Below, one piece after another: positions 1,513 through 29,144 of a stretch of DNA of 31,035 nucleotides. Below the pieces are notes generated by a model, which saw only the letters and a list, made by a program, of their open reading frames with translations, did not search any database and had not been told where the DNA came from. Location: IMG/VR virus record IMGVR_UViG_3300025418_000771, positions 1 through 31,035 of that record. One strand, 5' to 3'. The number at the start of each line of letters is the position of its first letter. The first letter of the stretch is position 1. Origin of the DNA: a virus. Made by a program: the position numbers and the translations under genes.

Positions 1513-1529
1513 CTATATTAATGCAAAAT
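1513..1529 (-). promoter_or_regulatory. Phage promoter core, copy 1
   Basis: Minus strand reads ATTTTGCATTAATATAG, the consensus of a family repeated across the window. The last G (1513) is the presumed start point. It lies 65 nt before the DUF2815 start. The palindrome at 1544-1558 ends 17 nt before its TTGCATT, the same spacing as in the copy before the primase. Confidence 0.75.
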
Positions 1530-1681
1530 TACTCAGATATATTTTTCACCATGTGAAATAATTTCTTGCGGTAATAGTCTGAAAGCGTCTGCTCCACTTT
1601 ATCTCGCATCTCGGCTAATTGCTTTTGTAGCTCTTTCTGTTCTTTTTCCTTGGTATTGCTAAGCGTCGTAAAGGATTCCAT
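1529..1681 (-). CDS. Small protein, 50 residues, unknown function
   Basis: Opens MESFTTLSNT and ends VKNISE. It is charged and likely helical (KEKEQKELQKQLAEMRDKVE), which suggests a short coiled coil. The ATG at 1681 has GGAG five bases upstream and overlaps the end of the preceding gene by 23 nt. Its TAA stop touches promoter copy 1. The good ribosome site and tight packing support it as real. No family recognised. Confidence 0.55.
   Translation of the reverse strand: MESFTTLSNTKEKEQKELQKQLAEMRDKVEQTLSDYYRKKLFHMVKNISE
1544..1558. promoter_or_regulatory. Palindromic operator-like site TTTCAC-N3-GTGAAA
   Basis: Perfect 6+6 inverted repeat around 3 nt. The same site is found at 15244-15260, and with one change at 21971-21985. 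Two of the three copies sit at an identical distance from a promoter core. It overlaps the end of a 50-residue ORF, so part of it is also coding. A binding site for a phage or host regulator is inferred. Confidence 0.5.
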
Positions 1682-1916
1682 GTTTCTCCAATGCTTTTTT
1701 CATTGCCAGGGCCCGGATAAAGTCTGTCATGTACTCAGGTTCTTCCAGGATCTCTGGCTCTATTGCTACCAATTCAACAATCTCGTTGATTGAGTCACGA
1801 AGTTGACCTTTTTGTTCAAACAAGCATTTGCCTGCTATCCCATCAAAGTCTTTTGTAAACATATCAATCAGTAAATCAGGCACTTCAAAATTTGAACCAA
1901 AACAATCTACCTGCAT
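1659..1916 (-). CDS. Hypothetical protein, 85 residues
   Basis: Acidic protein opening MQVDCFGSNF, with a run rich in Glu (EIVELVAIEPEILEEPEY). The start at 1916 has AGAAAGG upstream. It follows a small membrane protein by 17 nt and overlaps the next ORF by 23 nt, so it belongs to the DUF2800 transcript. No motif or family recognised. Confidence 0.6.
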   Translation of the reverse strand: MQVDCFGSNFEVPDLLIDMFTKDFDGIAGKCLFEQKGQLRDSINEIVELVAIEPEILEEPEYMTDFIRALAMKKALEKHGILYDA

Positions 1917-1933
1917 AGGTGCCTTTCTTATTG

Positions 1934-2077
1934 TTATTTTGCCACCATTACAAGGCCCACGTTACCCATGGCGTATCCTAGGAACATGATACCAGTACCA
2001 ATACCGCCCTTTCTAAATTGATCTAATGCCACAATAAAATAAACTATACCCATTCCTGCAATTAACCAGGTGCTCAT
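1934..2077 (-). CDS. Small predicted membrane protein, 47 residues
   Basis: Opens MSTWLIAGMGIVYFIVALDQ and continues with a second hydrophobic stretch (IMFLGYAMGNVGLVMV), joined by FRKGGIGTG. This gives two likely membrane segments linked by a basic turn. The ATG overlaps the TGA of the DUF2800 gene (ATGA), so translation is probably coupled. Function unknown. Confidence 0.7.
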   Translation of the reverse strand: MSTWLIAGMGIVYFIVALDQFRKGGIGTGIMFLGYAMGNVGLVMVAK

Positions 2078-3207
2078 GAAAAATCCTCCTTAGCACTCTC
2101 TTTATCGCGGACCAATTTGGGTTGTCCTTCAGGGCGCTGTACTAATTCTCCCAGCCATGCTGTAATTTGCCCTTTAGGTCCTAGCTTTTCTAATTGGGCT
2201 AGTGATTTGAGCTTTGGAGGCTCCCAAATAATTTCTGGGGCCATACCCTTCTCTACCAAAACGGTGGCCGCCAGGGCCTGATCTGCGATCTTACGGTGGG
2301 TTACTGAGGTAGAGAGTTTGTATCCGGGTGGCACCACATTTTCTTCTACTGCTCGGTTGAGTGCAAACTCTTCTACATCATTGACCCAGGTCCTTAGGGT
2401 TTGGGCTTTGTGGAGGACTTCGCTGATTTCGTCTTCGCTGAGGAGCGGGGGGTCTTTGAACTCTTGACGGGCGAGCTCTGTGTTGTAGTCGCTGCGGGCG
2501 CGGCATTGCGCTTTGGCTTTGCAGAACTGGCACCAGGATCCCGGGAGGAACTCACCTGCGCCGCTCCACGCTTTCTTGGCTTTTGGTTTGACGAAATAGT
2601 TTGCCCAGTCGACGAGCTTGGTGATGGACGTCCCATCGCTGCTAATAGAGTCGAGTCTTGGCTGGTGGATGGTGTAACTGACTTCTTTGATGTCAGGCCA
2701 CTCTTCTTTGAATTTACTCCATGCACCGAGCGCGTAGAGTCTGAGCTGGGTGTTGTCGATTGCGGAAACGGCCACGCCCTTGCCGAATTTAAGGTCGATG
2801 ACTCGAATGGTGTGTTTAGAAAGAATAACCACATCGGCCGTACCAAAGCCGTCAGGAACCCAGTCACTAAAGTCGACACGCTGTTCAAAAAGAGGCGTGT
2901 CCCCCTCACCAATTTGAGAACGAACGTACAATACATAATTGTCCACGTTAGCTTCAAAATCGTCATTGTAGTAGGGGGTTGCTTTAATGATCTCGTATTC
3001 TTTTTCATATTCTTCAATTCCTATTTGTCCGTAGTAATGACGTAATTTAGCTTCTGCTAATGAGTGGGCCATTGTTCCTTCTTGACTAAAATCGAAAGAA
3101 CCAGGGGGGCGTTTTTGGTCTGGGAGAGTTGCCTCTAATCTAGCGCTGGGGGTGCAGGATAGCCATCGTTTGGATCCTGATGCGCTTAGGAGTGCATGTG
3201 CAGTCAT
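2074..3207 (-). CDS. DUF2800 family protein, PD-(D/E)XK nuclease with Cas4-like cysteine cluster
   Basis: 377 residues. The N-terminal MTAHALLSASGSKRWLSC is the signature of DUF2800. The nuclease core shows GTADVV (Asp125) and VIDLKFGKG (Asp138, Lys140), the D...(D/E)-x-K pattern. A cysteine cluster near Cys226, Cys229 and Cys235, with Cys18 at the N-terminus, resembles the iron-sulphur site of Cas4/AddB-type nucleases. DUF2800 and DUF2815 genes are classic neighbours in phage recombination/replication modules, as here. It is expressed from promoter copy 2 (3234-3250) with a four-codon ORF in the leader. A role in DNA end processing or recombination is inferred from the family. Confidence 0.85.
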   Translation of the reverse strand: MTAHALLSASGSKRWLSCTPSARLEATLPDQKRPPGSFDFSQEGTMAHSLAEAKLRHYYGQIGIEEYEKEYEIIKATPYYNDDFEANVDNYVLYVRSQIGEGDTPLFEQRVDFSDWVPDGFGTADVVILSKHTIRVIDLKFGKGVAVSAIDNTQLRLYALGAWSKFKEEWPDIKEVSYTIHQPRLDSISSDGTSITKLVDWANYFVKPKAKKAWSGAGEFLPGSWCQFCKAKAQCRARSDYNTELARQEFKDPPLLSEDEISEVLHKAQTLRTWVNDVEEFALNRAVEENVVPPGYKLSTSVTHRKIADQALAATVLVEKGMAPEIIWEPPKLKSLAQLEKLGPKGQITAWLGELVQRPEGQPKLVRDKESAKEDFS

Positions 3208-3216
3208 CTTATTCTC

Positions 3217-3231
3217 TTATTCAATTGTCAT
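3217..3231 (-). other. Leaderless four-codon minicistron (MTIE-stop)
   Basis: ATG-ACA-ATT-GAA-TAA begins three bases after the presumed start of promoter copy 2, exactly where four other copies place a true start codon. It ends 9 nt before the DUF2800 ATG. It may tune ribosome loading on DUF2800 or be a relic. Confidence 0.35.
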
Positions 3232-3233
3232 AT

Positions 3234-3250
3234 TTATATTAATGCAAAAT
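3234..3250 (-). promoter_or_regulatory. Phage promoter core, copy 2
   Basis: Minus strand reads ATTTTGCATTAATATAA, one base from consensus at the last position. It faces the DUF2800 gene, whose start is 27 nt further on. Confidence 0.75.
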
Positions 3251-3259
3251 CCGAAGAAT

Positions 3260-3652: not shown

Positions 3653-3673
3653 TGATACTTCCCTCAAGTAAAT

Positions 3674-3733: not shown

Positions 3734-4129
3734 CTACTCTTTTAGTGAGTTGATTAACTCTTGAATTTCTTTGTTGAAATCGATAGTGACTTCTTGTTTT
3801 ACTGTTGCTTTGACTTCACGATTGTCTTTGTAATCCTCGGGGTACTGGCCCCGTAATGCGATCTCAGCGACACGTGAATTAAATCCGCGGTTATCAATAT
3901 TTGCCAGCATCATATTTTCCCAGTAAGCCTGGCCATATGTTGTGGCAAGGTCCATGGTTTCCGCAAAAACTGGATCATCTTGTTTCCATTTAGCGGCCGT
4001 AGCTTTACTGATACCAACAGCGGCATACATAGCTTTTTGAGACGCACCTTGCTTACCAAGATCTAAAATAATCTCGGCCATCTCTTTGGTAAATGTCTTT
4101 TTATTTGCTGGTGATTTTTTGGTTGCCAT
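3734..4129 (-). CDS. Terminase small subunit (putative)
   Basis: 131 residues. A basic N-terminus is followed by a helix-turn-helix (ILDLGKQGASQKAMYAAVGISKATAAKWKQ, about 22-51), then a segment with DLATTYGQAYWENMMLANID and QYPEDYKDNREVKATVKQEV, and an acidic C-terminal tail (EIQELINSLKE). This arrangement of DNA-binding HTH, helical oligomerisation region and short tail matches small terminases that recognise phage DNA and load the large subunit. It is unusual that it lies on the opposite strand and about 20 kb from the large subunit (24015-25457). It overlaps the stop of the upstream DUF6321-like gene (ATGG junction). Confidence 0.7.
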   Translation of the reverse strand: MATKKSPANKKTFTKEMAEIILDLGKQGASQKAMYAAVGISKATAAKWKQDDPVFAETMDLATTYGQAYWENMMLANIDNRGFNSRVAEIALRGQYPEDYKDNREVKATVKQEVTIDFNKEIQELINSLKE

Positions 4130-4560
4130 TAGCAGTTCCAGTTTTTTAATGATGCCTTAGCTCTTGTGGCTGGCCCTTTTGCTTTCTTTACAACACCTTC
4201 CATGCGAGCGCAGAACGATGCCTTACGGCCCTTGTCTGATTCTGTCTTTGGGTGGGGTGCTGGTGCTTTTAGGTTGCTATTATTCTTGCGGTTGTATTCT
4301 GCACGACCCTTGGCTGTCATACCTGCACCCTTTTCGGTAGGGTTGTATGTCTTTCCTGAGCCAGTGGTTTTGTGGGCGATTGGCTTGTCGTGTTTTACTG
4401 AGCCGCCGGTTGCCTTCTTGGCAGTTTTAGCAGACTCAACAAATGCTTGTTTGGTTGGGGCACCGGCTGTGCCAGGTTTACGCATGCGTTCGCCTGAGCC
4501 ATTTTTGATGCGCTCTTGTTTAGCGTGGATGTTTGCATATAGGCCGGGTTTGGTTGCCAT
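4129..4560 (-). CDS. DUF6321-like basic phage protein, 143 residues
   Basis: Strongly basic, low-complexity protein with Lys/Gly/Ala-rich segments, opening MATKPGLYANIHAKQERI and closing SFCARMEGVV...LKNWNC. The blocks GERMRKPGTAGAPT, MTAKGRAEYNRKNNSNLKAP and SFCARM are shared by DUF6321-type proteins of many large aquatic phages. Function is unknown; a DNA-binding or virion-core role is a guess from charge. AAGGAATATT precedes the ATG. It lies just after tRNA-Thr and just before the small terminase gene. Confidence 0.7.
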   Translation of the reverse strand: MATKPGLYANIHAKQERIKNGSGERMRKPGTAGAPTKQAFVESAKTAKKATGGSVKHDKPIAHKTTGSGKTYNPTEKGAGMTAKGRAEYNRKNNSNLKAPAPHPKTESDKGRKASFCARMEGVVKKAKGPATRAKASLKNWNC

Positions 4561-4660: not shown

Positions 4661-4918
4661 TTAGAATATTACCGTGGTGCCAGTCAATCGTTTTGCTACT
4701 TTAACGACTTCATTATGGCTGGTATCGCTGACAAACTTGTTAATTTCAACGGCCTTGTCAATGATTTCTTCCATGGTAGGAAACTTAGGCGCTAATTCGG
4801 ATACTTCTTTTGATGTCTTGTTAAGCAAGTCCCATGCAGCCAGGTTGGCCTCATGCTGTTTAACTAAAAGATCCTTAGCGGTGTTGAAAATGGAAAAACG
4901 TAATTCAAATGGATTCAT
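4661..4918 (-). CDS. Conserved hypothetical phage protein, 85 residues
   Basis: Opens MNPFELRFSIFNTAKDLLVKQHEANLAAW by residue 29, a pattern I recall from T4-like cyanophage hypotheticals but to which I cannot attach a function. Mostly helical. AGGAGAATTAT precedes the ATG at 4918. It is the first gene after promoter copy 3 and its ~155-nt structured leader. Confidence 0.7.
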   Translation of the reverse strand: MNPFELRFSIFNTAKDLLVKQHEANLAAWDLLNKTSKEVSELAPKFPTMEEIIDKAVEINKFVSDTSHNEVVKVAKRLTGTTVIF

Positions 4919-5073: not shown

Positions 5074-5090
5074 CTATATTAATGCAAAAT
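5074..5090 (-). promoter_or_regulatory. Phage promoter core, copy 3
   Basis: Exact ATTTTGCATTAATATAG on the minus strand. A TAGGGCG element lies 15 nt upstream of TTGCATT, the same spacing as in copies 7 and 8 on the other strand. It drives the 85-residue protein, tRNA-Thr, DUF6321-like, small terminase and endonuclease VII-like genes. Confidence 0.78.
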
Positions 5091-5106
5091 GCCTACCGAA
5101 AGCGCC

Positions 5107-5331
5107 CTAATCCGGAATAATGATTGTTCTTTTGGGCTTTGATGGCACCGGGGTATCCATAGCCTTGCGCAGATGAGGCAAAACGTCATTGAGCATCATC
5201 TTGGCCATTGCTGCGGCCTTTTCTTGATGCTCAATTTCCTGCTCTGCCGTTGTGCGTTTAGCTTTACGCTCTACCTCCGCAATGATGTCATTGCTGACAC
5301 CGGCGCGTTTAAGCAGTTGCTTGAGGTTCAT
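5107..5331 (-). CDS. Hypothetical helical protein, 74 residues
   Basis: Opens MNLKQLLKRAGVSNDIIAEV, followed by a charged helix (ERKAKRTTAEQEIEHQEKAA) and a Pro/Lys-rich tail. I chose the ATG at 5331 over the one at 5355 because GGAGACTCC lies in the ribosome-site position, and this shortens the overlap with the upstream gene to 23 nt. It is the last gene of the ACP operon before promoter copy 3. Function unknown. Confidence 0.6.
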   Translation of the reverse strand: MNLKQLLKRAGVSNDIIAEVERKAKRTTAEQEIEHQEKAAAMAKMMLNDVLPHLRKAMDTPVPSKPKRTIIIPD

Positions 5332-6306: not shown

Positions 6307-6475
6307 CTCTCATCTCCTTAAGGTGTTTTTCCATAATCTGTAACTCTTCCATGCTGTCACACACCCAGATTCCCAGTAAATCTTTAAAGCGGCTAGTGTC
6401 GATATCCTCCACACCAGTAAGCGTCTCCATAACATAGTAGCCTTTAATTTTGTGCTCGACAATAAAATGACTCAT
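6281..6475 (-). CDS. Hypothetical protein, 64 residues
   Basis: Opens MSHFIVEHKIKGYYVMETLT. The ATG at 6475 overlaps the TGA of the sigma region-4-like gene (ATGA), which decides against a longer frame. It includes GIWVCDSMEELQIMEKHLKEM. Function unknown. Confidence 0.65.
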   Translation of the reverse strand: MSHFIVEHKIKGYYVMETLTGVEDIDTSRFKDLLGIWVCDSMEELQIMEKHLKEMRDARSSKPT

Positions 6476-6774
6476 AGCTTTAATTCTTTCTTGATAAACT
6501 CGACGCCGCGTGAAAAATGATAACGCCAATACTTTTCGGTAACACAGATATCTGTATAGTTTAATCCGTCTAAGAATGCCTCCAAGATAAACTGCTGTTT
6601 GGGTGGCAGACGTTCAGAAATTAATCTACGGATATCTGCAATATCTTCGGCGTCCCAAGGCAGCCATCCCTCTATCAGGGTTGGAAAATTTAGATCGTTA
6701 CTGTCATCCTTTTCAATTGGATCGAGATCTTCGTCAGATAGTCTTGGCGCTACGGCTTTTATTTTTTTTATCAT
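6472..6774 (-). CDS. Sigma-70 region 4-like helix-turn-helix protein, 100 residues
   Basis: Residues 55-98 (LPPKQQFILEAFLDGLNYTDICVTEKYWRYHFSRGVEFIKKEL) follow the layout of sigma region 4 (LPxxQ..VL...L.GLSY.EIA...GVS...V......A...L), including the recognition-helix position. The N-terminal half is acidic with no sigma region 2. It could recognise a -35 element or touch the RNA polymerase flap like T4 gp33, which is inference. It overlaps the ketoacyl synthase stop by ATGA. The other sigma gene in the window (18097-18678) lacks region 4, so the two could be parts of one split factor. Confidence 0.55.
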   Translation of the reverse strand: MIKKIKAVAPRLSDEDLDPIEKDDSNDLNFPTLIEGWLPWDAEDIADIRRLISERLPPKQQFILEAFLDGLNYTDICVTEKYWRYHFSRGVEFIKKELKL

Positions 6775-7874
6775 ACCTGTGTGTCAAAAATTGCTGCTGA
6801 ATAAATATTTCCCATACCTGCTGCTAAACTTAAAATTCTATGCTGCCCCGTCATCTCTAATGGATAGGACAGATACTGATGATCCCGCCTTGTACGATTG
6901 GCAATTGCTGGTACTAGACCCTTCTTCATACTGTCTAGTAACAAACAAGTCTCTAGCAAACCGGATGCGCCCATCGTGTGACCAATACTTGGTTTGAACG
7001 ATGTTGCTACAAAGTTGTGATCAAAGACTGTCTTTAATGCGTTACGCTCTGATACATTGTTTGAATGTGTGCCGGTGCCATGTGTCTTTACTATATCAAT
7101 ATGTCGCGGACTCATGTTGGCATGTTTTAGCGCGCCGTATGCCGCTTTTATAAAACCCTCACCATCTTCACGTTGACCAATTGCGTTGGTGCTTTTTTCT
7201 GAGGCGTTGTATGAGCTAACTAAACGGGCTGCTGGATTCTTGGCATAACGTGCATTCTCAAAGACTGCCATCACAGCGCCCTGGCCAATATGAAAGCCAT
7301 GGTTTACGCCATCAAAAGCAGACGGTAGCACACCGGCGTCATCCTGTTCTTTAGTCAATACTGCTTTAGATTCACCAAAGAATTTTAATACGGTATTGCT
7401 GACCTGGTCTTCTACTGATACCACCACAACGCGATCAAAGCGATACATGTTAAATAACATCTGCACATCCATCATGACTTTGAGACTTGATGCGCATGCG
7501 CTTGCGTCAGTCAATATCATATCTTCCGCGCCGAACATTCTTGCCAATGTGCCGGCATAGACTTGCGTCAAGGTCAAGTGTGCAAACTTGTAATTGTAGC
7601 TAAGCTGCGTTGGTTTGATGTCTTTATTTAACCCAGCAAACTGTGTATTGCCTGCGGCCAAGATCAGGGCAGTGCGCCCCTCTCTGCTGCGGATATCTTC
7701 TACTAATTCTGGCACCAATAGTTTACTGGCCACCACGTGGGGAGCGTAGGCAAAACCCGATGATGCCTTAGCATAGCTTTCAGGAAACCAATGCACGCGC
7801 TGTGGATACTCTAAGTCATCCAATAGGTGCGTGTCTTGTGTGCAGACGGTTTTATAATCAGTTAGATATATCAC
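6771..7874 (-). CDS. Beta-ketoacyl synthase (thiolase fold, KAS/FabF-like), 367 residues
   Basis: Condenses an acyl chain with a malonyl unit on acyl carrier protein. The catalytic set is complete: nucleophile Cys127 in DASACASS, His265 in KTHGTGT, and Lys294/His299 in KPSIGHT, with the mid-domain AFDGVNHGFHIGQGA block (186-200). FabF enzymes are usually about 410 residues with the cysteine near 163, so the N-terminus is 30-40 residues shorter and lacks the usual RVVITG strand. I chose the GTG at 7874 because GGAGG lies at correct spacing and it gives a 17-nt overlap with the ACP gene; a start at 7931 would run deep into ACP. No transacylase or reductase gene is visible nearby, so it presumably works with host fatty-acid enzymes (inference). 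Confidence 0.88.
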   Translation of the reverse strand: MIYLTDYKTVCTQDTHLLDDLEYPQRVHWFPESYAKASSGFAYAPHVVASKLLVPELVEDIRSREGRTALILAAGNTQFAGLNKDIKPTQLSYNYKFAHLTLTQVYAGTLARMFGAEDMILTDASACASSLKVMMDVQMLFNMYRFDRVVVVSVEDQVSNTVLKFFGESKAVLTKEQDDAGVLPSAFDGVNHGFHIGQGAVMAVFENARYAKNPAARLVSSYNASEKSTNAIGQREDGEGFIKAAYGALKHANMSPRHIDIVKTHGTGTHSNNVSERNALKTVFDHNFVATSFKPSIGHTMGASGLLETCLLLDSMKKGLVPAIANRTRRDHQYLSYPLEMTGQHRILSLAAGMGNIYSAAIFDTQV

Positions 7875-8151
7875 TGAGGGCCGCCTCCACGCTAATAGGT
7901 TCTTTAGTCTTGTGCTGGCACATAAATTCAAACATATCGCGGACCGTTACTGGCTGCATGGTTTTAGCAATTTCTTCTGAGACACCATAGACGTCGCTCA
8001 AATAAATAGACACCATCAGCAGGTCCAGGCTGTCAAGCCCAGTCTCTGCGATTGGTGTATCCAGTGACGTGATGTTCACGCCATTGGAGTTGAGCGGTGT
8101 CGCTAATGCGACAACACCCTTGAGGAGTTCTAGTAGTTCTTTTTCGGTCAT
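7858..8151 (-). CDS. Acyl carrier protein, 97 residues
   Basis: A four-helix carrier that holds an acyl chain on a phosphopantetheine arm. The attachment motif is intact (ETGLDSLDLLM, Ser41), and helix II has the usual acidic pattern after it. The C-terminal ~20 residues (TKEPISVEAALSDISN) extend beyond a typical bacterial ACP. The ATG at 8151 lies three bases after the presumed start of promoter copy 4, with no ribosome site between, so the mRNA appears leaderless. It is the first gene of a long operon with the ketoacyl synthase. Host ACP synthase would be needed to charge it, since none is seen here. Confidence 0.88.
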   Translation of the reverse strand: MTEKELLELLKGVVALATPLNSNGVNITSLDTPIAETGLDSLDLLMVSIYLSDVYGVSEEIAKTMQPVTVRDMFEFMCQHKTKEPISVEAALSDISN

Positions 8152-8153: not shown

Positions 8154-8170
8154 CTATATTAATGCAAAAT
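8154..8170 (-). promoter_or_regulatory. Phage promoter core, copy 4 (inside helicase 3' end)
   Basis: Exact ATTTTGCATTAATATAG on the minus strand. It simultaneously encodes the last residues and the TAG stop of the helicase (NFALI-stop). The ACP start codon follows after a three-base gap including the presumed +1. Confidence 0.78.
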
Positions 8171-11300: not shown

Positions 11301-11395
11301 TTTTGTACCATCCATTCAATTTTTAAATTACCGATACGAACCCAACAATATCCACCACCAATATTATAAGTTATAAAACCTTTGAGCTTAATCAT
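11297..11395 (-). CDS. Hypothetical protein, 32 residues
   Basis: Opens MIKLKGFITYNIGGGYCWVR and ends EWMVQK. The ATG overlaps the stop of the upstream gene, with AAAGG from the repeated junction cassette as ribosome site. Unknown function. Confidence 0.45.
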   Translation of the reverse strand: MIKLKGFITYNIGGGYCWVRIGNLKIEWMVQK

Positions 11396-11511
11396 TTCTC
11401 TTGTGCCTTTCTTAAATTAGGGGTTGACTGTGTAGACGGTAGCCAACCAATACCGTTAGCAATCGGATGAGAAGTCCCATCCCCTAGCACTACACTTGCC
11501 TTACTAATCAT
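11392..11511 (-). CDS. Hypothetical protein ending LRKAQEK, 39 residues
   Basis: Opens MISKASVVLGDGTSHPIANG. Its last residues, stop and the next start are encoded by a 23-bp sequence found three times in this stretch. ATGA overlaps on both sides. Confidence 0.45.
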   Translation of the reverse strand: MISKASVVLGDGTSHPIANGIGWLPSTQSTPNLRKAQEK

Positions 11512-11720
11512 TTCTCTTGTGCCTTTCTTAAATCTTCAAGGATTGGTTCTGTGCCTATGTAACCTTTTACTATCTTTGAACATTTTTCAAATGTTTCTTC
11601 TCTAGCCGATATTTGACCGCCCTCAAACGCTCTAGCAAGCAACTTTAAAATTTCAGGGCTGACTGCCATTTGTGTAATGTTTGCATCGAACCAAATAGTG
11701 AATGGTGATTGATAGTTCAT
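11508..11720 (-). CDS. Hypothetical protein ending LRKAQEK, 70 residues
   Basis: Opens MNYQSPFTIWFDANITQMAV, with a helical middle (EILKLLARAFEGGQISAREE). The start overlaps the upstream stop. The ending is shared with both neighbours. Function unknown. Confidence 0.6.
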   Translation of the reverse strand: MNYQSPFTIWFDANITQMAVSPEILKLLARAFEGGQISAREETFEKCSKIVKGYIGTEPILEDLRKAQEK

Positions 11721-12019
11721 TTCTCTTGTGCCTTTCTTAGTATTGCTCTAGCAAACGCAATGTTTTGTTCGCCTGTGTCAGTTTCCATGCCACTCCAAAT
11801 TTCAATTATTTCCTCATCTGTTAGTGTTTTTGCTGTCTGTGTAATAACAGGGTCATAAGCAATGGCACCGCATCTTGCACATACTTTTCCGTCGCCTTTC
11901 AACGCCTGTATTTCAGCTTGTTGCTGGCGTAGCATGGTGGCTACTTTTTGGATTGTGTCGTAATGCTTTTGTTCCATCCCAACATCTTCCAATATTTCAG
12001 CTAGTTCATTTGCGTTCAT
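11717..12019 (-). CDS. Hypothetical protein with CxxC and LTDEEI...ARAILRKAQEK module, 100 residues
   Basis: Opens MNANELAEILEDVGMEQKHY, then a coiled-coil-like helix (TMLRQQQAEIQALK), a single CARCG pair, and the LTDEEIIEIW...FARAILRKAQEK ending. The ATG at 12019 overlaps the upstream stop by ATGA, so I prefer it to the ATG at 12040. Confidence 0.62.
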   Translation of the reverse strand: MNANELAEILEDVGMEQKHYDTIQKVATMLRQQQAEIQALKGDGKVCARCGAIAYDPVITQTAKTLTDEEIIEIWSGMETDTGEQNIAFARAILRKAQEK

Positions 12020-15213: not shown

Positions 15214-15230
15214 GTATATTAATGCAAAAA
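15214..15230 (-). promoter_or_regulatory. Phage promoter core, copy 5
   Basis: Minus strand reads TTTTTGCATTAATATAC (two differences from consensus, at the ends). The primase-helicase ATG follows after three bases. The palindrome at 15244-15260 ends at the same distance upstream as in copy 1. Confidence 0.75.
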
Positions 15231-15260: not shown

Positions 15261-15469
15261 CGGGACACAGAAGACAGGGTACGTTTCAAATTGCTGCACT
15301 GCATCCTGTCCCGGGTGTTGCCAATAAAATCAATAACTTAAGCCTCTTCGGGACACAGAAGACATAGAAGACAGGGTATATCTCTATTTTTCTCTAACTT
15401 TTAAAAAAATAAAATAAATATCCTGGATAAACTCAAAACAAGGGTGTCTTCTGTGTCTTCTGTGTCCCG
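15261..15469. repeat. Inverted-repeat/iteron element, copy 1 (candidate origin or control site)
   Basis: Fills most of the 353-nt gap before the primase gene. The main arms are 15349-15376 and 15442-15469 (25 matching positions with one G-T type change), built of tandem GACAYAGAA units. They enclose about 65-70 nt of AT-rich DNA that includes TATCCTGGATA. An extra unit, CGGGACACAGAAGACAGGG, starts at 15261. A close relative lies at 22508-22709. The rest of the gap (15470-15564) shows no gene. Confidence 0.8.
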
Positions 15470-17788: not shown

Positions 17789-18100
17789 TCACTCCTTCGA
17801 GTATGCCGGTGCCACGTCCCAGTTGTCTGCCTTACCATAATCACCACGCGATGAGCGCATGCGTTCCTGGTCCCTGAATGCCGGCTCAATCTTCCACCAG
17901 GATGCAGATGCCTCCTTGTACTCAATCCAGTCATCATTCTCGATATAGAATGGATGGTTAAACCCAGCCACCTCGATGCACTCGAGCACGTCCGCTTGCC
18001 GGATCCACTTCTTGGCACGCTTGGGCCCCAGTCCCATCTTATCCCTTGCAACAATAAAGCGGTTGTACGCTTTTTGCTGCTCGTCTGTTAGTTGTATCAC
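17789..18100 (-). CDS. Hypothetical protein, 103 residues
   Basis: Opens MIQLTDEQQKAYNRFIVARD. Tryptophan-rich second half (DDWIEYKEASASWWKIEPAF). It overlaps the sigma-factor stop by 4 nt and ends just before the GT2 gene. Function unknown. Confidence 0.62.
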   Translation of the reverse strand: MIQLTDEQQKAYNRFIVARDKMGLGPKRAKKWIRQADVLECIEVAGFNHPFYIENDDWIEYKEASASWWKIEPAFRDQERMRSSRGDYGKADNWDVAPAYSKE

Positions 18101-18678
18101 TCTTCATTCTCCTCGTTAAACTTCTCATTCTCTAGTGCGTCCAAACTGATGGGCTCACGGGTTAGGTAACTCTCTAACTGGTGCACGCGTCCGGTTGATA
18201 CGTTTAACACCTTGGCCAGCTCCGATGTTGTCGGTGCACGTCCCAGGATCTGCGACAAGGCCTGCTCTTCGTATCGCATCTTCTTGATGGCCTCCATGAT
18301 GTTGACTGGCAGTCGGATCACGTTTTCTGTGTTGTTCAGTTCGCGCAATACAAAGCGCCGGATGAATGCACACGCATAAGATGAGAACCGTACGCCCTTG
18401 GTTGGTTTCCAACGACGTGCTGCGAGCAATAAGGCCTCGTTGCCCATCTGAATCAAATCGTCCATTGGTGTCTTACCATGGTGCCAGGCTGTCATCTTGC
18501 TAGATACCATGTAGGGTACCAGTCGCAGATTATGCCTAACTAACTCGTCGTAGGCATCCTCGTCACCCTTGGCGATACGATGACCCAGTTCGTGCTCGTA
18601 GGCCAGTGGTAGTGTAGATATATCCATGGCCATGAGCTCCTGGAGATAGTCTGTCTTAATATCATTATGTTCGTTCAA
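18097..18678 (-). CDS. Sigma-70 family factor with regions 2 and 3 but no region 4, 193 residues
   Basis: Directs RNA polymerase to promoters. Region 1.2/2.1 is LGHRIAKGDEDAYDELVRHNLRLVPYM (31-57); region 2.2 is DLIQMGNEALLLAARRW (74-90), the polymerase-clamp contact; regions 2.3-2.4 are GVRFSSYACAFIRRFVLREL...VIRLP (95-124), which melts and reads the -10; region 3 is LGRAPTTSELAKVLNVSTGRVHQLESYL (145-172). The chain ends PISLDALENEKFNEENEE, where region 4 would normally follow. Housekeeping sigmas are far longer. A separate region-4-like protein is at 6472-6774. It probably serves the phage promoter family (inference). A weaker promoter copy lies at 18712-18728, 34 nt before the start. Confidence 0.85.
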   Translation of the reverse strand: MNEHNDIKTDYLQELMAMDISTLPLAYEHELGHRIAKGDEDAYDELVRHNLRLVPYMVSSKMTAWHHGKTPMDDLIQMGNEALLLAARRWKPTKGVRFSSYACAFIRRFVLRELNNTENVIRLPVNIMEAIKKMRYEEQALSQILGRAPTTSELAKVLNVSTGRVHQLESYLTREPISLDALENEKFNEENEE

Positions 18679-18854
18679 AATGGTGCCTCCGGTAATTGTG
18701 CAGCCGCTATACTATATAAATGCAAATTCGGCTCTTTTGGCAGTGCCTCTAAGCGCGTCCCTGGTGTGAGGTATGGGGTAGCCTCCACTTTACTAACAAA
18801 CTTCCTGGAGGCCCCTCCAAACTCGTCAATCAGCACGTAACGATATTGACTCAT
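18675..18854 (-). CDS. Hypothetical protein, 59 residues
   Basis: Opens MSQYRYVLIDEFGGASRKFV, then SKVEATPYLTPGTRLEALPK. The ATG at 18854 is chosen because the longer frame to 18971 overlaps the upstream gene heavily. Its coding region contains the promoter-like variant for the sigma gene. Confidence 0.55.
   Translation of the reverse strand: MSQYRYVLIDEFGGASRKFVSKVEATPYLTPGTRLEALPKEPNLHLYSIAAAQLPEAPF
18712..18728 (-). promoter_or_regulatory. Weak variant of the phage promoter core
   Basis: Minus strand reads AATTTGCATTTATATAG, two changes from consensus. It lies 34 nt before the sigma-factor start, inside the preceding gene. If functional it would make sigma expression self-reinforcing. 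Confidence 0.4.
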
Positions 18855-19525: not shown

Positions 19526-19553
19526 ATTATACTGATTACCAGGTATCTGTCAA
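19526..19553 (-). promoter_or_regulatory. Early sigma-70 promoter P1
   Basis: TTGACA (19548-19553), 16-bp spacer, TATAAT (19526-19531), both perfect, preceded by AAATAATTG. Arms GGTATC/GATACC flank the -35 region. Drives the 87-residue protein and genes below it. Confidence 0.9.
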
Positions 19554-20321: not shown

Positions 20322-20359
20322 GGTAGTAATTCCTTTGTTGTGTTGATGTGTCTATTATA
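20322..20359 (-). repeat. Leader repeat shared by P2 and P3 transcripts
   Basis: From the -10 box to the ATG this 38-bp stretch matches 21255-21292 at all but two or three positions (ATTACTACC versus ATTATCACC). It points to duplication of a promoter-leader cassette. Confidence 0.8.
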
Positions 20360-20382
20360 ATGACGTCCTGGCAGGATGTCAA
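20354..20382 (-). promoter_or_regulatory. Early sigma-70 promoter P2
   Basis: TTGACA (20377-20382), 17-bp spacer, TATAAT (20354-20359): an ideal consensus promoter. The spacer contains the palindrome TCCTGCCAGGA, which could be an operator. Confidence 0.92.
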
Positions 20383-21286: not shown

Positions 21287-21314
21287 ATTATACTGATATT
21301 TGGTCGGGTGTCAA
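21287..21314 (-). promoter_or_regulatory. Early sigma-70 promoter P3 embedded in an inverted repeat
   Basis: TTGACA (21309-21314), 16-bp spacer, TATAAT (21287-21292). A perfect 12-bp inverted repeat (ATTTGGTCGGGT at 21298-21309 and ACCCGACCAAAT at 21328-21339) spans the -35 box. It could be an operator or, as RNA, a hairpin ending upstream transcription. Confidence 0.9.
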
Positions 21315-22507: not shown

Positions 22508-22709
22508 TGTCTTCTGTGTCCCGAAAACAGCATTTTAATTGATAATCATTCTTATCTGCAGACCAACAATCAAGGACTTAGGCATTTTCGGGACATAGAA
22601 GACATAGAAGACACCCTTTATTCTATTTTATTAAAAATATTTTAAAAAAATAATTTATTATCCTGGATAAAGTTAAAACAAGGGTGTCTTCTATGTCTTC
22701 TGTGTCCCG
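22508..22709. repeat. Inverted-repeat/iteron element, copy 2 (candidate origin or control site)
   Basis: Arms 22589-22616 and 22682-22709 pair over 28 positions with one G-T type difference, built of GACAYAGAA units. They enclose 65 nt that are almost all A/T except TTATCCTGGATAA. An extra unit, CTGTCTTCTGTGTCCCG, starts at 22508 but is inverted compared with the extra unit of copy 1. Also shared with copy 1 is TGCACTGCATCCTGTC. Confidence 0.82.
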
Positions 22710-22759
22710 AAGGGACAGAGTCGAACCATATTTTTTAAACGTGGCAGTAATCGATGGCG

Positions 22760-22776
22760 TTTTTGCATTAATATAG
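22760..22776 (+). promoter_or_regulatory. Phage promoter core, copy 6
   Basis: TTTTTGCATTAATATAG on the plus strand, first rightward copy. The ATG of the 109-residue gene follows after GGT counted from +1. Likely promoter for the terminase region. Confidence 0.78.
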
Positions 22777-22778
22777 GT

Positions 22779-23108
22779 ATGAGCAGGTACGTATATCAAA
22801 TACAGGGGGCATTGGAAGATGCCAGTGGTAGACTTAGAGGTCTACGGGTCTTGGTATGTGATTTGTATAATTTTGAATCGGTGGATGTTCCAATCGAAAT
22901 CTTAGACAGAGAAACAGCACGCTACCTGCAATTTAGGATGAATGTGACAGAATCGGCGCCCAACATCGCCAAGCTGCCATACTCCGTTCAAAACAACATA
23001 CGAGTGCCGTTAGGGCGCTGGCTGGACCGTTGGGTCCTCACTAATTTTCATGGCGATAGCATCAAATCAACGAATACTAACCCTGGACCTATGGAAACTG
23101 GCCTCTGA
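22779..23108 (+). CDS. Hypothetical protein, 109 residues
   Basis: Opens MSRYVYQIQGALEDASGRLR. First rightward gene; its start codon is placed as a leaderless start from promoter copy 6. It has LRGLRVLVCDLYNFESVDVPIEIL and a basic-aromatic LGRWLDRWVLTNF. It overlaps the Hint-domain gene by 59 nt in another frame. No family recognised. Confidence 0.65.
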   Translation: MSRYVYQIQGALEDASGRLRGLRVLVCDLYNFESVDVPIEILDRETARYLQFRMNVTESAPNIAKLPYSVQNNIRVPLGRWLDRWVLTNFHGDSIKSTNTNPGPMETGL

Positions 23109-24021
23109 GATTAGGCCAGGCGATTACCTGTTTAACAACGATGGTCAACTGGTACAGGTAAAAAGCATTCACCCCTACGTATCCAACGAATGCTATGAGG
23201 TGGAGTTTGATGACCACGTCACGATTTGTGGCGATAAACACCTGGCATTCATGCTGGAAAACCCCAAGTACCGCAAAAGATTGCGAGAATACAAAGGAGT
23301 ACATAAATTTCGGCGCCCACTACGGCGCTATAGCGTCTTGGATATTGTGGAGTCTGGCGAAAACTTATCAATGCCGACTACCAAGCCGTTGCAGTTCCCA
23401 CACCAAGATCTACCCATACCACCATTCTTGTTAGGATTTTGGTTCCTGGGTAAGAGAGCCAACAAGACGATGGTACCATCGCCAGGTTGGTCAGAATTTA
23501 TACACCAAAAATTTAAAGACGCGGGGTACAAGATTACAACCCACCGGCTTAGGATGAACAACGAGCGTGAGTTTAAGTGCCACCCCAGTATCGAATCTCA
23601 GCTGGCGCCGTTTATTCCTAAAAAAATTCCGGCCAGATATCTTTACGCATCGGTTGAGCAAAGAATTGAGCTGCTGTCTGGATTAGTCTACGCAAGACGC
23701 GGACACTACAATGTTAAGAATGACGAGTTTGTTTTTACGTCAAAGAACCGAGAGCTTATGAATCAGATTCGTTTTTTGGCCGAATCACTCGGCAGCAAAA
23801 CGTTTACGATTCAGAAAAAAGACACGGGTTCATTCGTGATGAACTTTAAAACTTACATTAAATTAATTGATACGCAGGTATCTAAACCACTAAAGATTCA
23901 TTACGGTAGGCGGTACATACCAGAGATTAGACAAGTTAAACCCCAATCGTGTGTGCACATCGAGACAGATGGCGCAAATAACACATTCTTGGTAGGCGAA
24001 GGATTTATTTCAGCATGCTGA
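23050..24021 (+). CDS. Orphan Hint-domain protein with degenerate LAGLIDADG endonuclease, 323 residues
   Basis: An intein-like Hint fold with homing endonuclease that is no longer inside a host protein. Block A/B-like segments are ILTLDLWKLASEIRPGDYLF (10-28) and CGDKHLAF (60-67). The endonuclease helices are FLLGFWFLGK (126-135) and LLSGLVYARRG (208-218), where acidic residues expected after each glycine helix are Lys and Arg, so cleavage activity is doubtful. The C-terminal block is VHIETDGANNTFLVGEGFISAC, with no final His-Asn. The catalytic first Cys is also absent, so splicing is not expected. It overlaps the large terminase start by 7 nt. Confidence 0.78.
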   Translation: MAIASNQRILTLDLWKLASEIRPGDYLFNNDGQLVQVKSIHPYVSNECYEVEFDDHVTICGDKHLAFMLENPKYRKRLREYKGVHKFRRPLRRYSVLDIVESGENLSMPTTKPLQFPHQDLPIPPFLLGFWFLGKRANKTMVPSPGWSEFIHQKFKDAGYKITTHRLRMNNEREFKCHPSIESQLAPFIPKKIPARYLYASVEQRIELLSGLVYARRGHYNVKNDEFVFTSKNRELMNQIRFLAESLGSKTFTIQKKDTGSFVMNFKTYIKLIDTQVSKPLKIHYGRRYIPEIRQVKPQSCVHIETDGANNTFLVGEGFISAC

Positions 24022-25457
24022 CACCATCACAAGAACTTAAGCTAGAGAAGTTCGCAAAAGCACATAGCCACTGGCCTAAGCCAGAACTAGACGCGGCCAT
24101 CTGGCGCATCCGTTGGCAACTCCAGGCACTACCTCATCAAAAAGAACCAGAAGATGGAGAATATGACACCTTCCTTATGCTTGCGGGCCGGGGATCTGGC
24201 AAGACGCACACTGCTAGTCATTGGATTGGTATTCGGGCTTGGGTCTACGGCGGAACCCGCTGGCTTGTCACAGCTCCTACGAGCAATGACATCCGAGCCA
24301 CCTGTTTCGAAGGAGACTCCGGACTCCTCAACATCATCCCCGAATCTCTCATCAAAGACTACAACAAGTCCCTCTTCGAGATCACCCTTACCAACGGCTC
24401 CCTCATCCAAGGCATCCCAGCCTCAGAGCCAGAACGTTACCGTGGTAAACAGTTCCACGGGGCATGGTTCGACGAGCTCTGCGCATTCGAGTACCTCGAC
24501 GACGCCTACGACGGCGTGCAGTTCACGCTGCGTCTTAGAGATCCACGGATCCCCCGCGTCCAACAAATCATCACCACGACCCCCAAGCCAAAAGAATTGA
24601 TTGTCGATTTGGCCGAAGGTAAAATCGGCGGCGATGTATACATGGTTAATGCCTCGTCTTATGACAACCGGCAGAACTTATCGGAAACATTTTTTAAACA
24701 GCTTGAGACTTACGATGGCACTGACATTGGACGTCAGGAGATCTATGGAGAAATCTTAGATCCCGAGCAAGCGGGTATTATCAAACGTAAACAGTTCAAA
24801 CTCTGGCCGGCCAATAAGCCAACGCCAACCCTGGAATACGTCATCGCATCATATGACCCAGCTACCAGCGAAAAGACCATGAACGACCCCACGGCCTGCA
24901 CAGTGTGGGGCGTGTTTGAACAACAAGACGCTGGCACATCGGTCATCTTACTGGACGCATGGGATGAGCACTTAGCATACCCACAACTGCGCCGAAAGAT
25001 TATTGACGATTTTAAAGAAGTAGTCTATGGTGCGGATAACGATTTTGCTAAGGGCAAGAAGGCAGACCTTATTCTGATGGAAGATAAATCTGCTGGTATC
25101 TCACTGATCCAAGAACTCCAAGGCTCTGGTGTACCGGTGCGTGGATACAACCCTGGCAGGGCGGACAAAGTACAGCGATTAAATATCGTCGCGCCCCTGG
25201 TTGCTAAAGGTAAGGTGTTTATCCCAGAAGATCCAAAAATTAAGGGCGAGTTTGCCGACTGGGCAAAACGATTCTTGCGCCAGGTCTGCTCATTCCCAGA
25301 AGCGGGTGGGCATGATGACTATGTTGACTCACTATCACAAGCACTAAGGGTATTACGAGACTCTGGTTGGTTGCAGTTAGATTATCTACCAGCACGCAAT
25401 TATGACTATGCTGATGATGACTATTCACGCAAGTTTGTCAACCCATACGCGCAATAG
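24015..25457 (+). CDS. Terminase large subunit, 480 residues
   Basis: Packages DNA with an ATPase motor and cuts it with a nuclease. Walker A is GRGSGKT (58-64), Walker B AWFDEL (150-155, Asp153, Glu154), coupling motif ITTTP (186-190). RNase H-like nuclease has SYDPAT (Asp281), LMEDKSAG (Glu356/Asp357) and GGHDDYVDSL (Asp434/435/438). Full-length, with no intein despite the Hint-domain gene next to it. The small subunit is on the other strand at 3734-4129. Confidence 0.95.
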   Translation: MLTPSQELKLEKFAKAHSHWPKPELDAAIWRIRWQLQALPHQKEPEDGEYDTFLMLAGRGSGKTHTASHWIGIRAWVYGGTRWLVTAPTSNDIRATCFEGDSGLLNIIPESLIKDYNKSLFEITLTNGSLIQGIPASEPERYRGKQFHGAWFDELCAFEYLDDAYDGVQFTLRLRDPRIPRVQQIITTTPKPKELIVDLAEGKIGGDVYMVNASSYDNRQNLSETFFKQLETYDGTDIGRQEIYGEILDPEQAGIIKRKQFKLWPANKPTPTLEYVIASYDPATSEKTMNDPTACTVWGVFEQQDAGTSVILLDAWDEHLAYPQLRRKIIDDFKEVVYGADNDFAKGKKADLILMEDKSAGISLIQELQGSGVPVRGYNPGRADKVQRLNIVAPLVAKGKVFIPEDPKIKGEFADWAKRFLRQVCSFPEAGGHDDYVDSLSQALRVLRDSGWLQLDYLPARNYDYADDDYSRKFVNPYAQ

Positions 25458-25473
25458 GGCGGATTGCCCGTTA

Positions 25474-25490
25474 TTATTGCATTAATATTA
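25474..25490 (+). promoter_or_regulatory. Phage promoter core, copy 7
   Basis: Contains TTGCATTAATAT exactly; outer positions differ from consensus. TAGGGCG lies 15 nt upstream of TTGCATT. The portal start follows 46 nt later, so this copy is not leaderless. Confidence 0.65.
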
Positions 25491-25535: not shown

Positions 25536-28391
25536 ATGGCCCAAAACCCACAATTACCAATCCAAGCTGGTAGTAATCTCCCCGGATTAGACCGGGAAGA
25601 GGACATCCATGAGGCGCAAGACCAAGAAATGGAAATGGACGCCTATGAAGATGCGTTGGGTTTAGACCCAGATGAAGTAGAGCAAGAAGTCATTGAACTT
25701 GATGATGGCTCCGTTGTGGTAAATTTTACACCAAAAGAAAGCCCACAACAAAACCCAGAATTTTATGCTAACCTGGCAGAAGTCTTTGATGAAGATGTTT
25801 TGCAGATGTTGGCAGTTGAGTACCTGGACTACATCGACGTTGATCGTGAGTCTAGAGAACAACGAGACAAGCAGTACGAAGAAGGATTACGCCGTACCGG
25901 TTTAGGTAAGGACGCGCCTGGAGGAGCCACGTTCGACGGAGCTTCCAAAGTCGTTCACCCAGTTATGGCTGAGGCCTGCGTAGATTTCGCTGCGTCTTCA
26001 TCCAAAGAATTATTGCCACCCGATGGAATTGTTAAGTCAAACATCAAGGGCACTGCAGATCGCGTCAAAGAAGAGATTGCTGAACGTAAAGTAAACTTTA
26101 TGAACTGGCAGCTCACAGAACAAGTACCAGAGTTCCGTGACGAGATGGAGCAGTTACTTACCCAGTTACCGCTTGGTGGTTCTCAGTTCCTTAAATGGCG
26201 CTATGACGCAGAACAGCGTCGCCCAACATGCGAATGGGTGCCAATCGATAATATCTTGTTACCTTGGGCCTCTACCAATTTCTACACAGCAGGACGCGTA
26301 ACTGAAGTACAAGACATCACAGAAGATGTGTTCTTACAACGTGTTGAAGCTGGAATCTATCGTGATATCGATAGTGAATATTCTTCTGATGCACCATTAA
26401 ACGATCAGACCCAATCTGAAAAAGCAAACAATAAGATCGAAGGCAAGGATATGCCTTCTAAAAATATTGATGGCTTGCGTCGTATCTACGAAATTACTTG
26501 TTTTATTCGCCTAGATGATGATCCAGAAACTGATGGTAAACGTGCACCATACATTCTCACAATTGATGAGACAACAAGCAAAGTATTAGCACTCTACCGC
26601 AACTGGGAAGCTGGCGATGACAAACTTAAAAAGATGGACTGGTATGTCGAGTTCAAATTTATTCCCTGGCGTGGAGCTTACGCTATTGGATTGCCTCATC
26701 TTATTGGTGGCCTTTCTGCTGCTCTTACCGGGGCTCTGCGCGCTTTACTTGATGCTGCTCACATCAACAACAGCCAGACAATGCTTAAACTCAAGGGTGG
26801 ACGCATTGGAGGACAGTCTGACCGAATAGAGCCAACTCAAGTTATTGAGATTGAGGGAGCCCCTGGCGTTGATGACGTTCGCAAGATTGCGATGCCAATG
26901 CCATTTAACCAGCCATCTTCTGTGCTGTTTAATCTGCTTGGTTGGTTGACTGATGCCGCTAAAGGTGTTGTTACTACAGCCGAAGAAAAGATTGGCGAAG
27001 CAAACAACAACATGCCTGTCGGCACGGCGCAAGCGCTGATCGAACAAGGCGCCAAAGTATTCTCTAGCATTCACGCCCGTCTGCACCGTAGCCAGGCTAA
27101 ATCTTTAATGATCGTCTCACGTATCAATCATTGGTACTTAGATGAGATGGACAACCAGTCTGGCGAAGAGATTAAAGTTCGTGACTTTGCGTATAACTCT
27201 GATGTACGCCCAGTGTCTGATCCTAATATTTTCTCTGAGACACAACGTTTAGCACAAAACCAGGCACTGTTGCAGATGGCGTCATCCGCGCCCCCTGGCA
27301 TGTTTGATATGCGTTCTGTTTATCGCCGCGTACTTGCGCAGTTAAAAGTTCCAGCAATTGAAGAGATCCTGCCAAACCCAATGGGCGCGCATGAATCTAA
27401 CCCAGCACTAGAAAACGTTTCAATGACCATGGGTCGTCCTGCAGCAGCATACCCAGATCAAGACCACATTGCTCACATCAAGGTTCACTTAGAATACGCA
27501 GAAAATCCAGCCTATGGTGGCAACCCTGTCATTGGTCCTGTATTTGCTCCTCATGCACTTGAGCACATCAAGCAACACTTGACACTGCATTATTTACAAT
27601 CGATGCGCGCTTATGTGGCCCAGGCTTCTGGCGGCCACGATGTACTTGAATTGCACACAGAAAAACCATTGGATATCGAGGCACAACAAGCGTTGGCCCT
27701 GGCATCGCAGATGGTTGATGAAGATGCTAAGATGAACTTGTCTGGTTATGTACAACAAATCCAGGCCTTGGCAATGAAAGTACAACAAGCACAACAAGCT
27801 CAGATGCAGCAAGTTGCTATGAATGATCCTACTTCTGCTGCAATTATCAAAACATCGATGGCTGAGACAGAACGTAAGACACAAGAGTTCCAAGTTAAGA
27901 TTCAATCTGACTTACAACAAGCACAACAAAGCTACCAACTCAAGGTTGCAGAACTGCAGCAGAAAGTGGCCGAGTTGCAAGCTAAGTATTCAACCCAGAC
28001 CAATATCGACAACCAGCGTAATGCTACCGATATCGCGATGGCAAATATTAATAATGCAGCAAAAGAACGTGTCGCAGCCATTACGGCCGGTGCACAAATG
28101 GATCAGCAGCAGGCTCAGCTTGACCACGAACAGAACATGTCTGCCATGGAGGCTATTAAAGCATCCGATCAGGACATCCGTCAACATGGTCTAGCAGTAC
28201 AGCAGCAGAATTTCCAATCACAGGCAGATCAAGTAGCACAGCAGGCAAAAGCACAACAACAAGCCGCATTAGCTCAACAGCAACATGAGCAACAATTGCA
28301 GCAACAAGCATTCCAGGCGCAAAACCAAGCATTACAGTCACAAGCCCCGGAACAACAAGCAGCACCACAACCACCCACTGAGGAACAATAA
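25536..28391 (+). CDS. Portal protein with long glutamine-rich C-terminal tail, 951 residues
   Basis: Forms the head-to-tail connector and DNA entry ring. Signatures from portals of podovirus-like phages include RRTGLGKDAPGGATFDGASKV (105-125), TQLPLGGSQFLKWRYD and the WVPIDNILLPWASTNFYTAGRVTEV block. The last ~220 residues (from about 728) are a repetitive Gln/Ala helix with many QQAQQ and AELQ heptads, ending APQPPTEEQ. Typical P22-type portals are about 700 residues with a helical barrel at the C-terminus, and this tail would make a long barrel or disordered brush. The next gene starts at the stop codon (TAATG). Confidence 0.88.
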   Translation: MAQNPQLPIQAGSNLPGLDREEDIHEAQDQEMEMDAYEDALGLDPDEVEQEVIELDDGSVVVNFTPKESPQQNPEFYANLAEVFDEDVLQMLAVEYLDYIDVDRESREQRDKQYEEGLRRTGLGKDAPGGATFDGASKVVHPVMAEACVDFAASSSKELLPPDGIVKSNIKGTADRVKEEIAERKVNFMNWQLTEQVPEFRDEMEQLLTQLPLGGSQFLKWRYDAEQRRPTCEWVPIDNILLPWASTNFYTAGRVTEVQDITEDVFLQRVEAGIYRDIDSEYSSDAPLNDQTQSEKANNKIEGKDMPSKNIDGLRRIYEITCFIRLDDDPETDGKRAPYILTIDETTSKVLALYRNWEAGDDKLKKMDWYVEFKFIPWRGAYAIGLPHLIGGLSAALTGALRALLDAAHINNSQTMLKLKGGRIGGQSDRIEPTQVIEIEGAPGVDDVRKIAMPMPFNQPSSVLFNLLGWLTDAAKGVVTTAEEKIGEANNNMPVGTAQALIEQGAKVFSSIHARLHRSQAKSLMIVSRINHWYLDEMDNQSGEEIKVRDFAYNSDVRPVSDPNIFSETQRLAQNQALLQMASSAPPGMFDMRSVYRRVLAQLKVPAIEEILPNPMGAHESNPALENVSMTMGRPAAAYPDQDHIAHIKVHLEYAENPAYGGNPVIGPVFAPHALEHIKQHLTLHYLQSMRAYVAQASGGHDVLELHTEKPLDIEAQQALALASQMVDEDAKMNLSGYVQQIQALAMKVQQAQQAQMQQVAMNDPTSAAIIKTSMAETERKTQEFQVKIQSDLQQAQQSYQLKVAELQQKVAELQAKYSTQTNIDNQRNATDIAMANINNAAKERVAAITAGAQMDQQQAQLDHEQNMSAMEAIKASDQDIRQHGLAVQQQNFQSQADQVAQQAKAQQQAALAQQQHEQQLQQQAFQAQNQALQSQAPEQQAAPQPPTEEQ

Positions 28392-28609
28392 TGGCAAAAG
28401 ATGAATTAGGTTTTCGTCAAACCTACAAGCAAATGGGCAAACAAAGCTCCGGCGGCGGCCCAGAAGACAAAAATTTAGACGCTGGTAATTCTGGCTCACA
28501 CCGCGACAACAACTGGAAGATTGGCGCAGCGCAAGCTAAGATGGCTAAATCTTCTAAAGTTGGTCCAGATAAGAATCTGAACGAAATCGGCGGCGGAAAT
28601 TTCTACTAA
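28391..28609 (+). CDS. Hypothetical protein, 72 residues
   Basis: Opens MAKDELGFRQTYKQMGKQSS and is rich in Gly/Asn/Lys, so probably disordered. Start overlaps the portal stop. Located where head-associated small proteins often lie. Unknown. Confidence 0.62.
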   Translation: MAKDELGFRQTYKQMGKQSSGGGPEDKNLDAGNSGSHRDNNWKIGAAQAKMAKSSKVGPDKNLNEIGGGNFY

Positions 28610-28619
28610 AAAAAATTCT

Positions 28620-29111
28620 GTGAAAAGAATCAATCCTAAAACAGGTAAATTTTTTAAACGTGGCGATTTACGTGGTGATGGGTTTGCGTTCCACCATTAT
28701 CGATACGATCGCCCTTTAAAAGATGGATACTTAACAGAGGCTTGGTATAGCCCTGCAGCTTTTTCCCAGCAAAACTTAGGAATGGCAAAATGCAGGGAAA
28801 GAAACAGAGACAAAGCTCGTAAAGAAACAAGAAAATGGCAAATAGCTAATCCAAGTAAAGTTTGTGCTTATACAAGAAATAGGCGCGCAACAAAAATTAA
28901 CAGAACGCCAACTTGGCTTACAAAAGAACACCATCTTCAAATAGAGGGTTTTTATTTACTTGCAAAAGAAATGGAAAAGCAATTTGGGAAAAAATATGAA
29001 GTTGACCACATTGTTCCACTTAAAGGCAAAACTGTGTCGGGATTGCATGTACCTTGGAATTTACAGATATTAACTAAATCTGAAAATTGTTCAAAAAACA
29101 ATAGTTTTTAG
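28620..29111 (+). CDS. HNH endonuclease, 163 residues
   Basis: The C-terminal nuclease is YEVDHIVPLKGKTVSGLHVPWNLQIL...NCSKNN (126-161): Asp129-His130, His143, Asn147 and the closing Asn. The N-terminal half is basic. It starts at GTG 28620 without an obvious ribosome site and sits between structural genes, typical of a free-standing homing nuclease inserted in a late operon. Contrast with packaging-linked HNH proteins, which usually adjoin the terminase. Confidence 0.78.
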   Translation: MKRINPKTGKFFKRGDLRGDGFAFHHYRYDRPLKDGYLTEAWYSPAAFSQQNLGMAKCRERNRDKARKETRKWQIANPSKVCAYTRNRRATKINRTPTWLTKEHHLQIEGFYLLAKEMEKQFGKKYEVDHIVPLKGKTVSGLHVPWNLQILTKSENCSKNNSF

Positions 29112-29127
29112 GGCGGATTTTTCGCTC

Positions 29128-29144
29128 CAATTGCATTAATATGA
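29128..29144 (+). promoter_or_regulatory. Phage promoter core, copy 8
   Basis: Contains TTGCATTAATAT, then GAGT-ATG. Aligned with copy 6, the ATG at 29147 is at the leaderless position. TAGGGCG lies 15 nt upstream of TTGCATT. Confidence 0.65.

Follow-up and report, generated by a model that had tools for sequence, protein, structure and literature searches.

The 31,035-base viral fragment analysed here (IMG/VR record IMGVR_UViG_3300025418_000771, positions 1 to 31,035, hereafter the window) carries a family of phage-specific promoters on both strands that falls into two classes, one having only a conserved core, TTGCATTANTATANNTA(G/T)GA, and the other also having the element GGGCG exactly 20 nucleotides (nt) upstream of TTGC. 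Usually a single sigma chain recognises both the −10 and the −35 element. In the reading that we favour, and consider fairly probable, the phage has a split sigma factor, of which the first part reads middle promoters and a later region-4 part adds recognition of GGGCG at late promoters. An earlier, sequence-only reading of the window had proposed the promoter family, although it overlooked that the promoters form two classes and that there is a separate region-4-like protein.

The eight strong copies that it proposed were all recovered at the positions and on the strands listed in Table 1, each of them an exact TTGCATTAATAT. With up to one mismatch, TTGCATTAATAT matches nine times in the window where 0.27 matches are expected, and the 17-base motif has seven matches with up to three mismatches (0.13 expected). 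There is good support for a family distinct from the early block's host-type TTGACA-TATAAT promoters. The family thus stands as proposed but not its extent, the conserved unit being the longer TTGCATTANTATANNTA(G/T)GA, and the accompanying claim that the copies lack a normal −35 element holds for some of them but not for those at 5074, 25474 and 29128, which have the upstream GGGCG. A weaker copy had also been assigned to the family upstream of the sigma gene. It reads TTGCATTTATAT, the RTAKGA block being absent downstream. Of eight non-redundant regions upstream of the sigma gene only one, the window's own, has a comparable core, so that the membership of this copy is not supported. No conserved motif was found in these eight regions, and the sigma gene itself is positioned behind host-type promoters.

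Relatives were gathered by a portal search, which gave 80 related viral contigs, and with the extended motif alone, which gave more than 100 stretches; the sample numbers suggest that this phage group is a freshwater one. The same genes carry the motif in many related phages, and it points into genes: of 54 sites on seven long contigs, 49 lie within 300 nt of the start of a same-strand open reading frame (ORF), where chance would give 20%, and only seven fall inside ORFs of at least 100 amino acids, where chance would give 75%. The core varies by lineage as TTGCATTA-A/G/T-TA, orthologous sites reading TTGCATTAATA in some phages and TTGCATTAGTA or TTGCATTATTA in others, and RTA(G/T)GA is conserved downstream of it. 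In one clade (L271, L379, L384 and L386) the core is altered to TTGTATTATTA, with GGGCG at an unchanged distance. Neither the motif nor the sigma pair was found in Manatee Spring phage (MW202545), Caulobacter phage RW or Roseobacter phage CRP-901 (the last read up to its final 3 kb), whose portal proteins are about 38–52% identical; the promoter system thus seems confined to a closer group of phages. One match was noted in a contig of a beta-proteobacterial metagenome-assembled genome, which is a hint only as to the host. A repeat of GTGTAAGCGGCTATAG in G004 was considered as a promoter variant and rejected, as the array lies within a 1033-amino-acid ORF. A related 68-kb contig (G001, L203-L206) has 56 copies of CCGCTGTAACCA, possibly within its 3008-amino-acid ORF.

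Among 156 non-redundant sites, GGGCG occurs 88 times around the core and in 86 of these it is exactly 20 nt upstream of TTGC. When the genes downstream of motif sites were clustered, GGGCG-bearing promoters were found to precede structural and packaging genes (58 late genes with the element and two without), and replication and region-4-like genes to lack it throughout (0 with, 36 without). It is present before portal (17/17) and capsid-like genes (14/14), before the gene that precedes GroES (11/13) and before further structural genes, and absent before those for exonuclease (0/11), primase (0/7), the region-4-like protein (0/7), single-stranded DNA-binding protein (SSB; 0/6) and DNA polymerase (0/5). 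A repeat of the analysis anchored on the genes gave the same division: 18/18 for portal and 33/33 for gene 4661, against 0/20 for SSB, 0/30 for exonuclease, 0/11 for primase and 0/14 for the region-4-like gene. Loci fetched later by way of the region-4-like protein, with contexts already seen removed, added 15 late promoters with the element and none without, all of a single gene family, and 25 replication promoters, none with it. As far as sequence goes, GGGCG is a systematic, gene-class-specific element across the relatives, and the gene split, the fixed spacing and the two promoter classes can be read from it directly. The window's replication arm has one class II site, at 5074. The last gene of the run behind it is small-terminase-like, by a weak match, and a late role would be in keeping with this. 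Exceptions to the split are the lysozyme promoters, three in number and without GGGCG, and gene 22779, whose upstream elements are intermediate.

The phage sigma factor had been put forward as a reader of the motif, and this is well supported. The 193-amino-acid protein of the window exceeds the Pfam cut-off for Sigma70_r2, at 34 bits, and for Sigma70_r3, at 30 bits, and aligns to SigA with an E-value of 1e-30 over regions 1.2–3; primary sigma factors are matched over those regions only. Region 4 is not in this chain in any relative, all of which end after REPVSLD and an acidic tail at 189–193 amino acids. Within a genome the variable base of the core agrees between the two promoter classes in 96% of cases, compared with 37% after permutation, which argues that one reader serves both. 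Among all columns of an alignment of 34 non-redundant sigma factors, from about four clades, the best predictor of this base is position 100, which aligns with RpoD T429; positions 94 and 96 are also among the top four, and all three lie in region 2.3. RpoD W433 and W434 are replaced in the window's protein by A104 and F105, in keeping with a −10 element other than TATAAT.

The candidate for the missing region is a free-standing protein of 100 amino acids, relatives of which occur in 470 stretches of the viral collection. It contains a confidently predicted helical domain, for which nearly all of the best 26 rows of structural alignments are sigma region 4 domains (Z up to 7.2), and when its profile is compared with the E. 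coli sigma factor it aligns to region 4 and not to region 2; a sequence search of the PDB with this profile returned irrelevant matches only. The assignment is a prediction that leans on the consistency of the structure matches, sequence support being weak. When 72 further loci containing the region-4-like gene were fetched, 71 of them proved to carry the core.

The sequence-only reading had placed the start of transcription at the final G of its motif, which is probably off by 3 nt. Several genes have start codons that begin 3 nt after this G, so that transcription should start there or just upstream; a start further downstream would remove those start codons. At 23 sites the predicted start codon begins exactly at the A of TA(G/T)GA, among them gene 22779, the window's primase gene and several region-4-like genes, and likewise the gene before GroES. 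We infer that this A, three bases past the final G, is the start site. GGGCG would then occupy −36 to −32 and the core would span an extended −10 region, the −10 register being uncertain by one or two bases. A start codon at the +1 A predicts leaderless mRNAs.

Taken together, these features suggest the following scheme. Host sigma70 would transcribe the early genes, including that for the phage sigma factor, from the host-type promoters. The motif would act as a −10 region with an extended upstream part, read by the host core RNA polymerase with the phage sigma factor, which by itself (regions 1.2–3) would serve the class I promoters having only TTGCATTANTATANNTA(G/T)GA and so yield SSB, exonuclease, primase, DNA polymerase and the small region-4-like protein. 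The latter would stand in for region 4 and read GGGCG at about −36, and the completed sigma factor would turn to the class II promoters of the portal, capsid, tail and packaging genes. That the sigma chain lacks region 4, that a region-4 fold is predicted in a separate protein and that one promoter base covaries with region 2.3 can be seen from the sequences themselves; the binding of each element by each protein, and the timing, are what we infer. We regard as evenly balanced the fuller statement that this sigma factor comes in two instalments, a region 1.2–3 piece for the replication genes and a free-standing region 4 for the virion promoters, such that assembling the sigma factor is itself the switch in time and several of the mRNAs are leaderless.

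Several observations weigh against the split sigma factor. For the region-4-like model the VIA-align Z scores of 5–7 are middling and the Foldseek E-values are about 1, and the Pfam matches of the 100-amino-acid protein are below the cut-off. Of 32 non-redundant cases of the region-4-like gene, only 14 show a recognisable core in the 200 nt before it; in the window this gene is the third behind the 8154 promoter. Lysis is usually late, and three lysozyme promoters are without GGGCG. The promoter sites are related by descent and the counts are thus not independent, and the covariation with the sigma factor derives from about four lineages, so few that it is supportive and not proof.

In another explanation the phage sigma factor reads all of the −10 elements, while GGGCG is recognised by a different activator, of phage or host origin, or by a host region 4. 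The 6472-6774 protein would then be otherwise employed, for example in inhibition of the host sigma factor. Its region-4 assignment is after all a predicted fold with middling scores, and there is a precedent in phiEco32 gp79, a small protein from a middle gene, which stimulates the phage sigma factor while inhibiting sigma70 (PMC8948821). However, the exact spacing between GGGCG and the core is like that of a sigma −35 element, and no region-4-like protein was found other than this one, which the whole group conserves and which sits with the class I genes. We consider this explanation unlikely, albeit one to be taken seriously.

Hairpins such as GGGCGTAAATCGCCCTTTTT precede some of the sites, and the repeats might be terminators or processing signals with GGGCG as a hairpin arm before a T-run; a possible 3′ arm is present in 40 of 86 cases, but the 46 without it still have GGGCG exactly at −20, so that a terminator hairpin does not explain the element. 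The core is moreover oriented with the downstream gene and covaries with the sigma factor, and GGGCG is absent before replication genes, all of which makes this very improbable. The sequence-only reading had also entertained a single-subunit RNA polymerase, and TATAG with the conserved start region that follows, about 23 bp together, does resemble the promoters of such enzymes. A T7-like polymerase encoded by the phage nonetheless seems scarcely credible: PF00940 had no match in 31 related records, which by itself counts for little as the control genomes were likewise silent, a 63.7-kb record with terminal repeats gave no polymerase match among its large unassigned proteins, and a fixed GGGCG about 36 bases before the likely start falls outside single-subunit polymerase promoters and is sigma-like in its geometry. 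A T7-like or mitochondrial-type promoter was accordingly dropped on the fixed GGGCG and the covariation of the core with the sigma factor, and a sigma54-type promoter, suggested by TTGCA, on the lack of a conserved GG at −24.

The split sigma factor invites comparison with known two-part systems, its sigma part being clear and its region-4 part a predicted fold with a weak profile match. The division of sigma2 and sigma4 functions between two proteins recalls SigO-RsoA, although that system serves bacterial stress and its promoters require both subunits, whereas here the first part seems to have one-element promoters of its own. As with T4 gp55 and gp33, a phage sigma factor without region 4 would be joined by a small co-activator for late transcription by the host core polymerase. 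The T4 late promoters, however, lack a −35 element and depend on the sliding clamp, and gp33 has no structural relation to region 4 and by itself does not bind DNA (PMC7892883); the present system differs in its predicted region-4 fold and in the GGGCG of its late promoters. Phage 7-11 gp47 possesses a region 4, and the promoters it recognises have two elements (PMC8948821). Unlike the situation with gp47 or phiEco32 gp36, one-element and two-element promoters here coexist in one genome for one sigma factor, split by gene class, and the single-element phiEco32 promoter, tAATGTAtA, differs from the core described above. In SPO1, gp34 and gp33 jointly drive bipartite late promoters (CGTTAGA-N17-19-GATATT), and the middle genes have a distinct sigma factor, gp28 (PMC3601020, PMC9429907); the proposed use of two phage proteins at late promoters is similar but the promoter sequence is not. 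None of these five systems combines class-divided one- and two-element promoters, the same sigma factor for both and a free-standing region-4 fold, and in a literature search that reached few subscription papers we found no phage sigma factor split into a region 2–3 protein and a free-standing region 4.

Table 1. Promoters and proposed promoter-reading proteins of the window.
Feature	Position	Strand	Remarks
Class I promoter core	1513-1529	−	no GGGCG; upstream of SSB (930-1448)
Class I promoter core	3234-3250	−	upstream of exonuclease (2074-3207)
Class II promoter	5074-5107	−	core 5074-5090, GGGCG 5103-5107; leads into 4661-4918, 4129-4560 and small-terminase-like 3734-4129
Sigma-region-4-like protein, free-standing, 100 amino acids	6472-6774	−	proposed GGGCG reader
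Class I promoter core	8154-8170	−	start codon of 7858-8151 at proposed +1; leads into acyl-carrier-protein-like (7858-8151), ketosynthase-like (6771-7931) and sigma-region-4-like (6472-6774) genes
Class I promoter core	15214-15230	−	directly before primase; likely start codon 15211 at proposed +1
Phage sigma factor	18097-18678	−	sigma70 regions 1.2–3, no region 4; proposed −10 core reader
Weak, non-conserved match	18712-18728	−	upstream of sigma gene; not supported as member
Host-type promoter	19526-19553	−	TTGACA-16-TATAAT, 12/12; early block
Host-type promoter	20354-20382	−	TTGACA-17-TATAAT, 12/12
Host-type promoter	21287-21314	−	TTGACA-16-TATAAT, 12/12
Intermediate promoter	22743-22776	+	core 22760-22776, GGCAG (3/5) 22743-22747; start codon of gene 22779 at proposed +1
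Class II promoter	25457-25490	+	GGGCG 25457-25461, core 25474-25490; portal gene
Class II promoter	29111-29144	+	GGGCG 29111-29115, core 29128-29144; start codon 29147 at proposed +1; GroES-like gene (29360-29797) downstream

The window also encodes a helicase, a terminase and, at its left end, a partial ribonucleotide reductase, in addition to the SSB, exonuclease, primase and portal proteins; a family A DNA polymerase follows in relatives. The ketoacyl-synthase and acyl-carrier-like genes (6771-8151, minus strand) form an insertion that separates the region-4-like gene from a class I promoter, and have no relative in the 17 contigs compared. Directly before the large terminase gene is a free-standing intein-like ORF, Hint-like by eye (23050-24021, plus strand), which has no Pfam match and is in the same place in eight relatives. 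A 142-nt repeat with TGTCTTCTGTGTCCCG inverted repeats (15328-15469 and 22568-22709) flanks the early gene block and is possibly an origin or a terminator. Three copies of TAATCATTTCTCTTGTGCCTTTCTTA occur at the ends of neighbouring small genes (11389-11742), and the word recurs in relatives.

If the split sigma factor is borne out, these phages would offer a natural experiment on the contribution of region 4 to initiation, and a two-part sigma factor with matched promoters might serve as an orthogonal system for laboratory use. It would also provide a simple rule, that GGGCG 20 nt upstream of TTGCATTANTA marks a late promoter, by which, given only their sequence, the genes of uncultured phages could be sorted by expression class.
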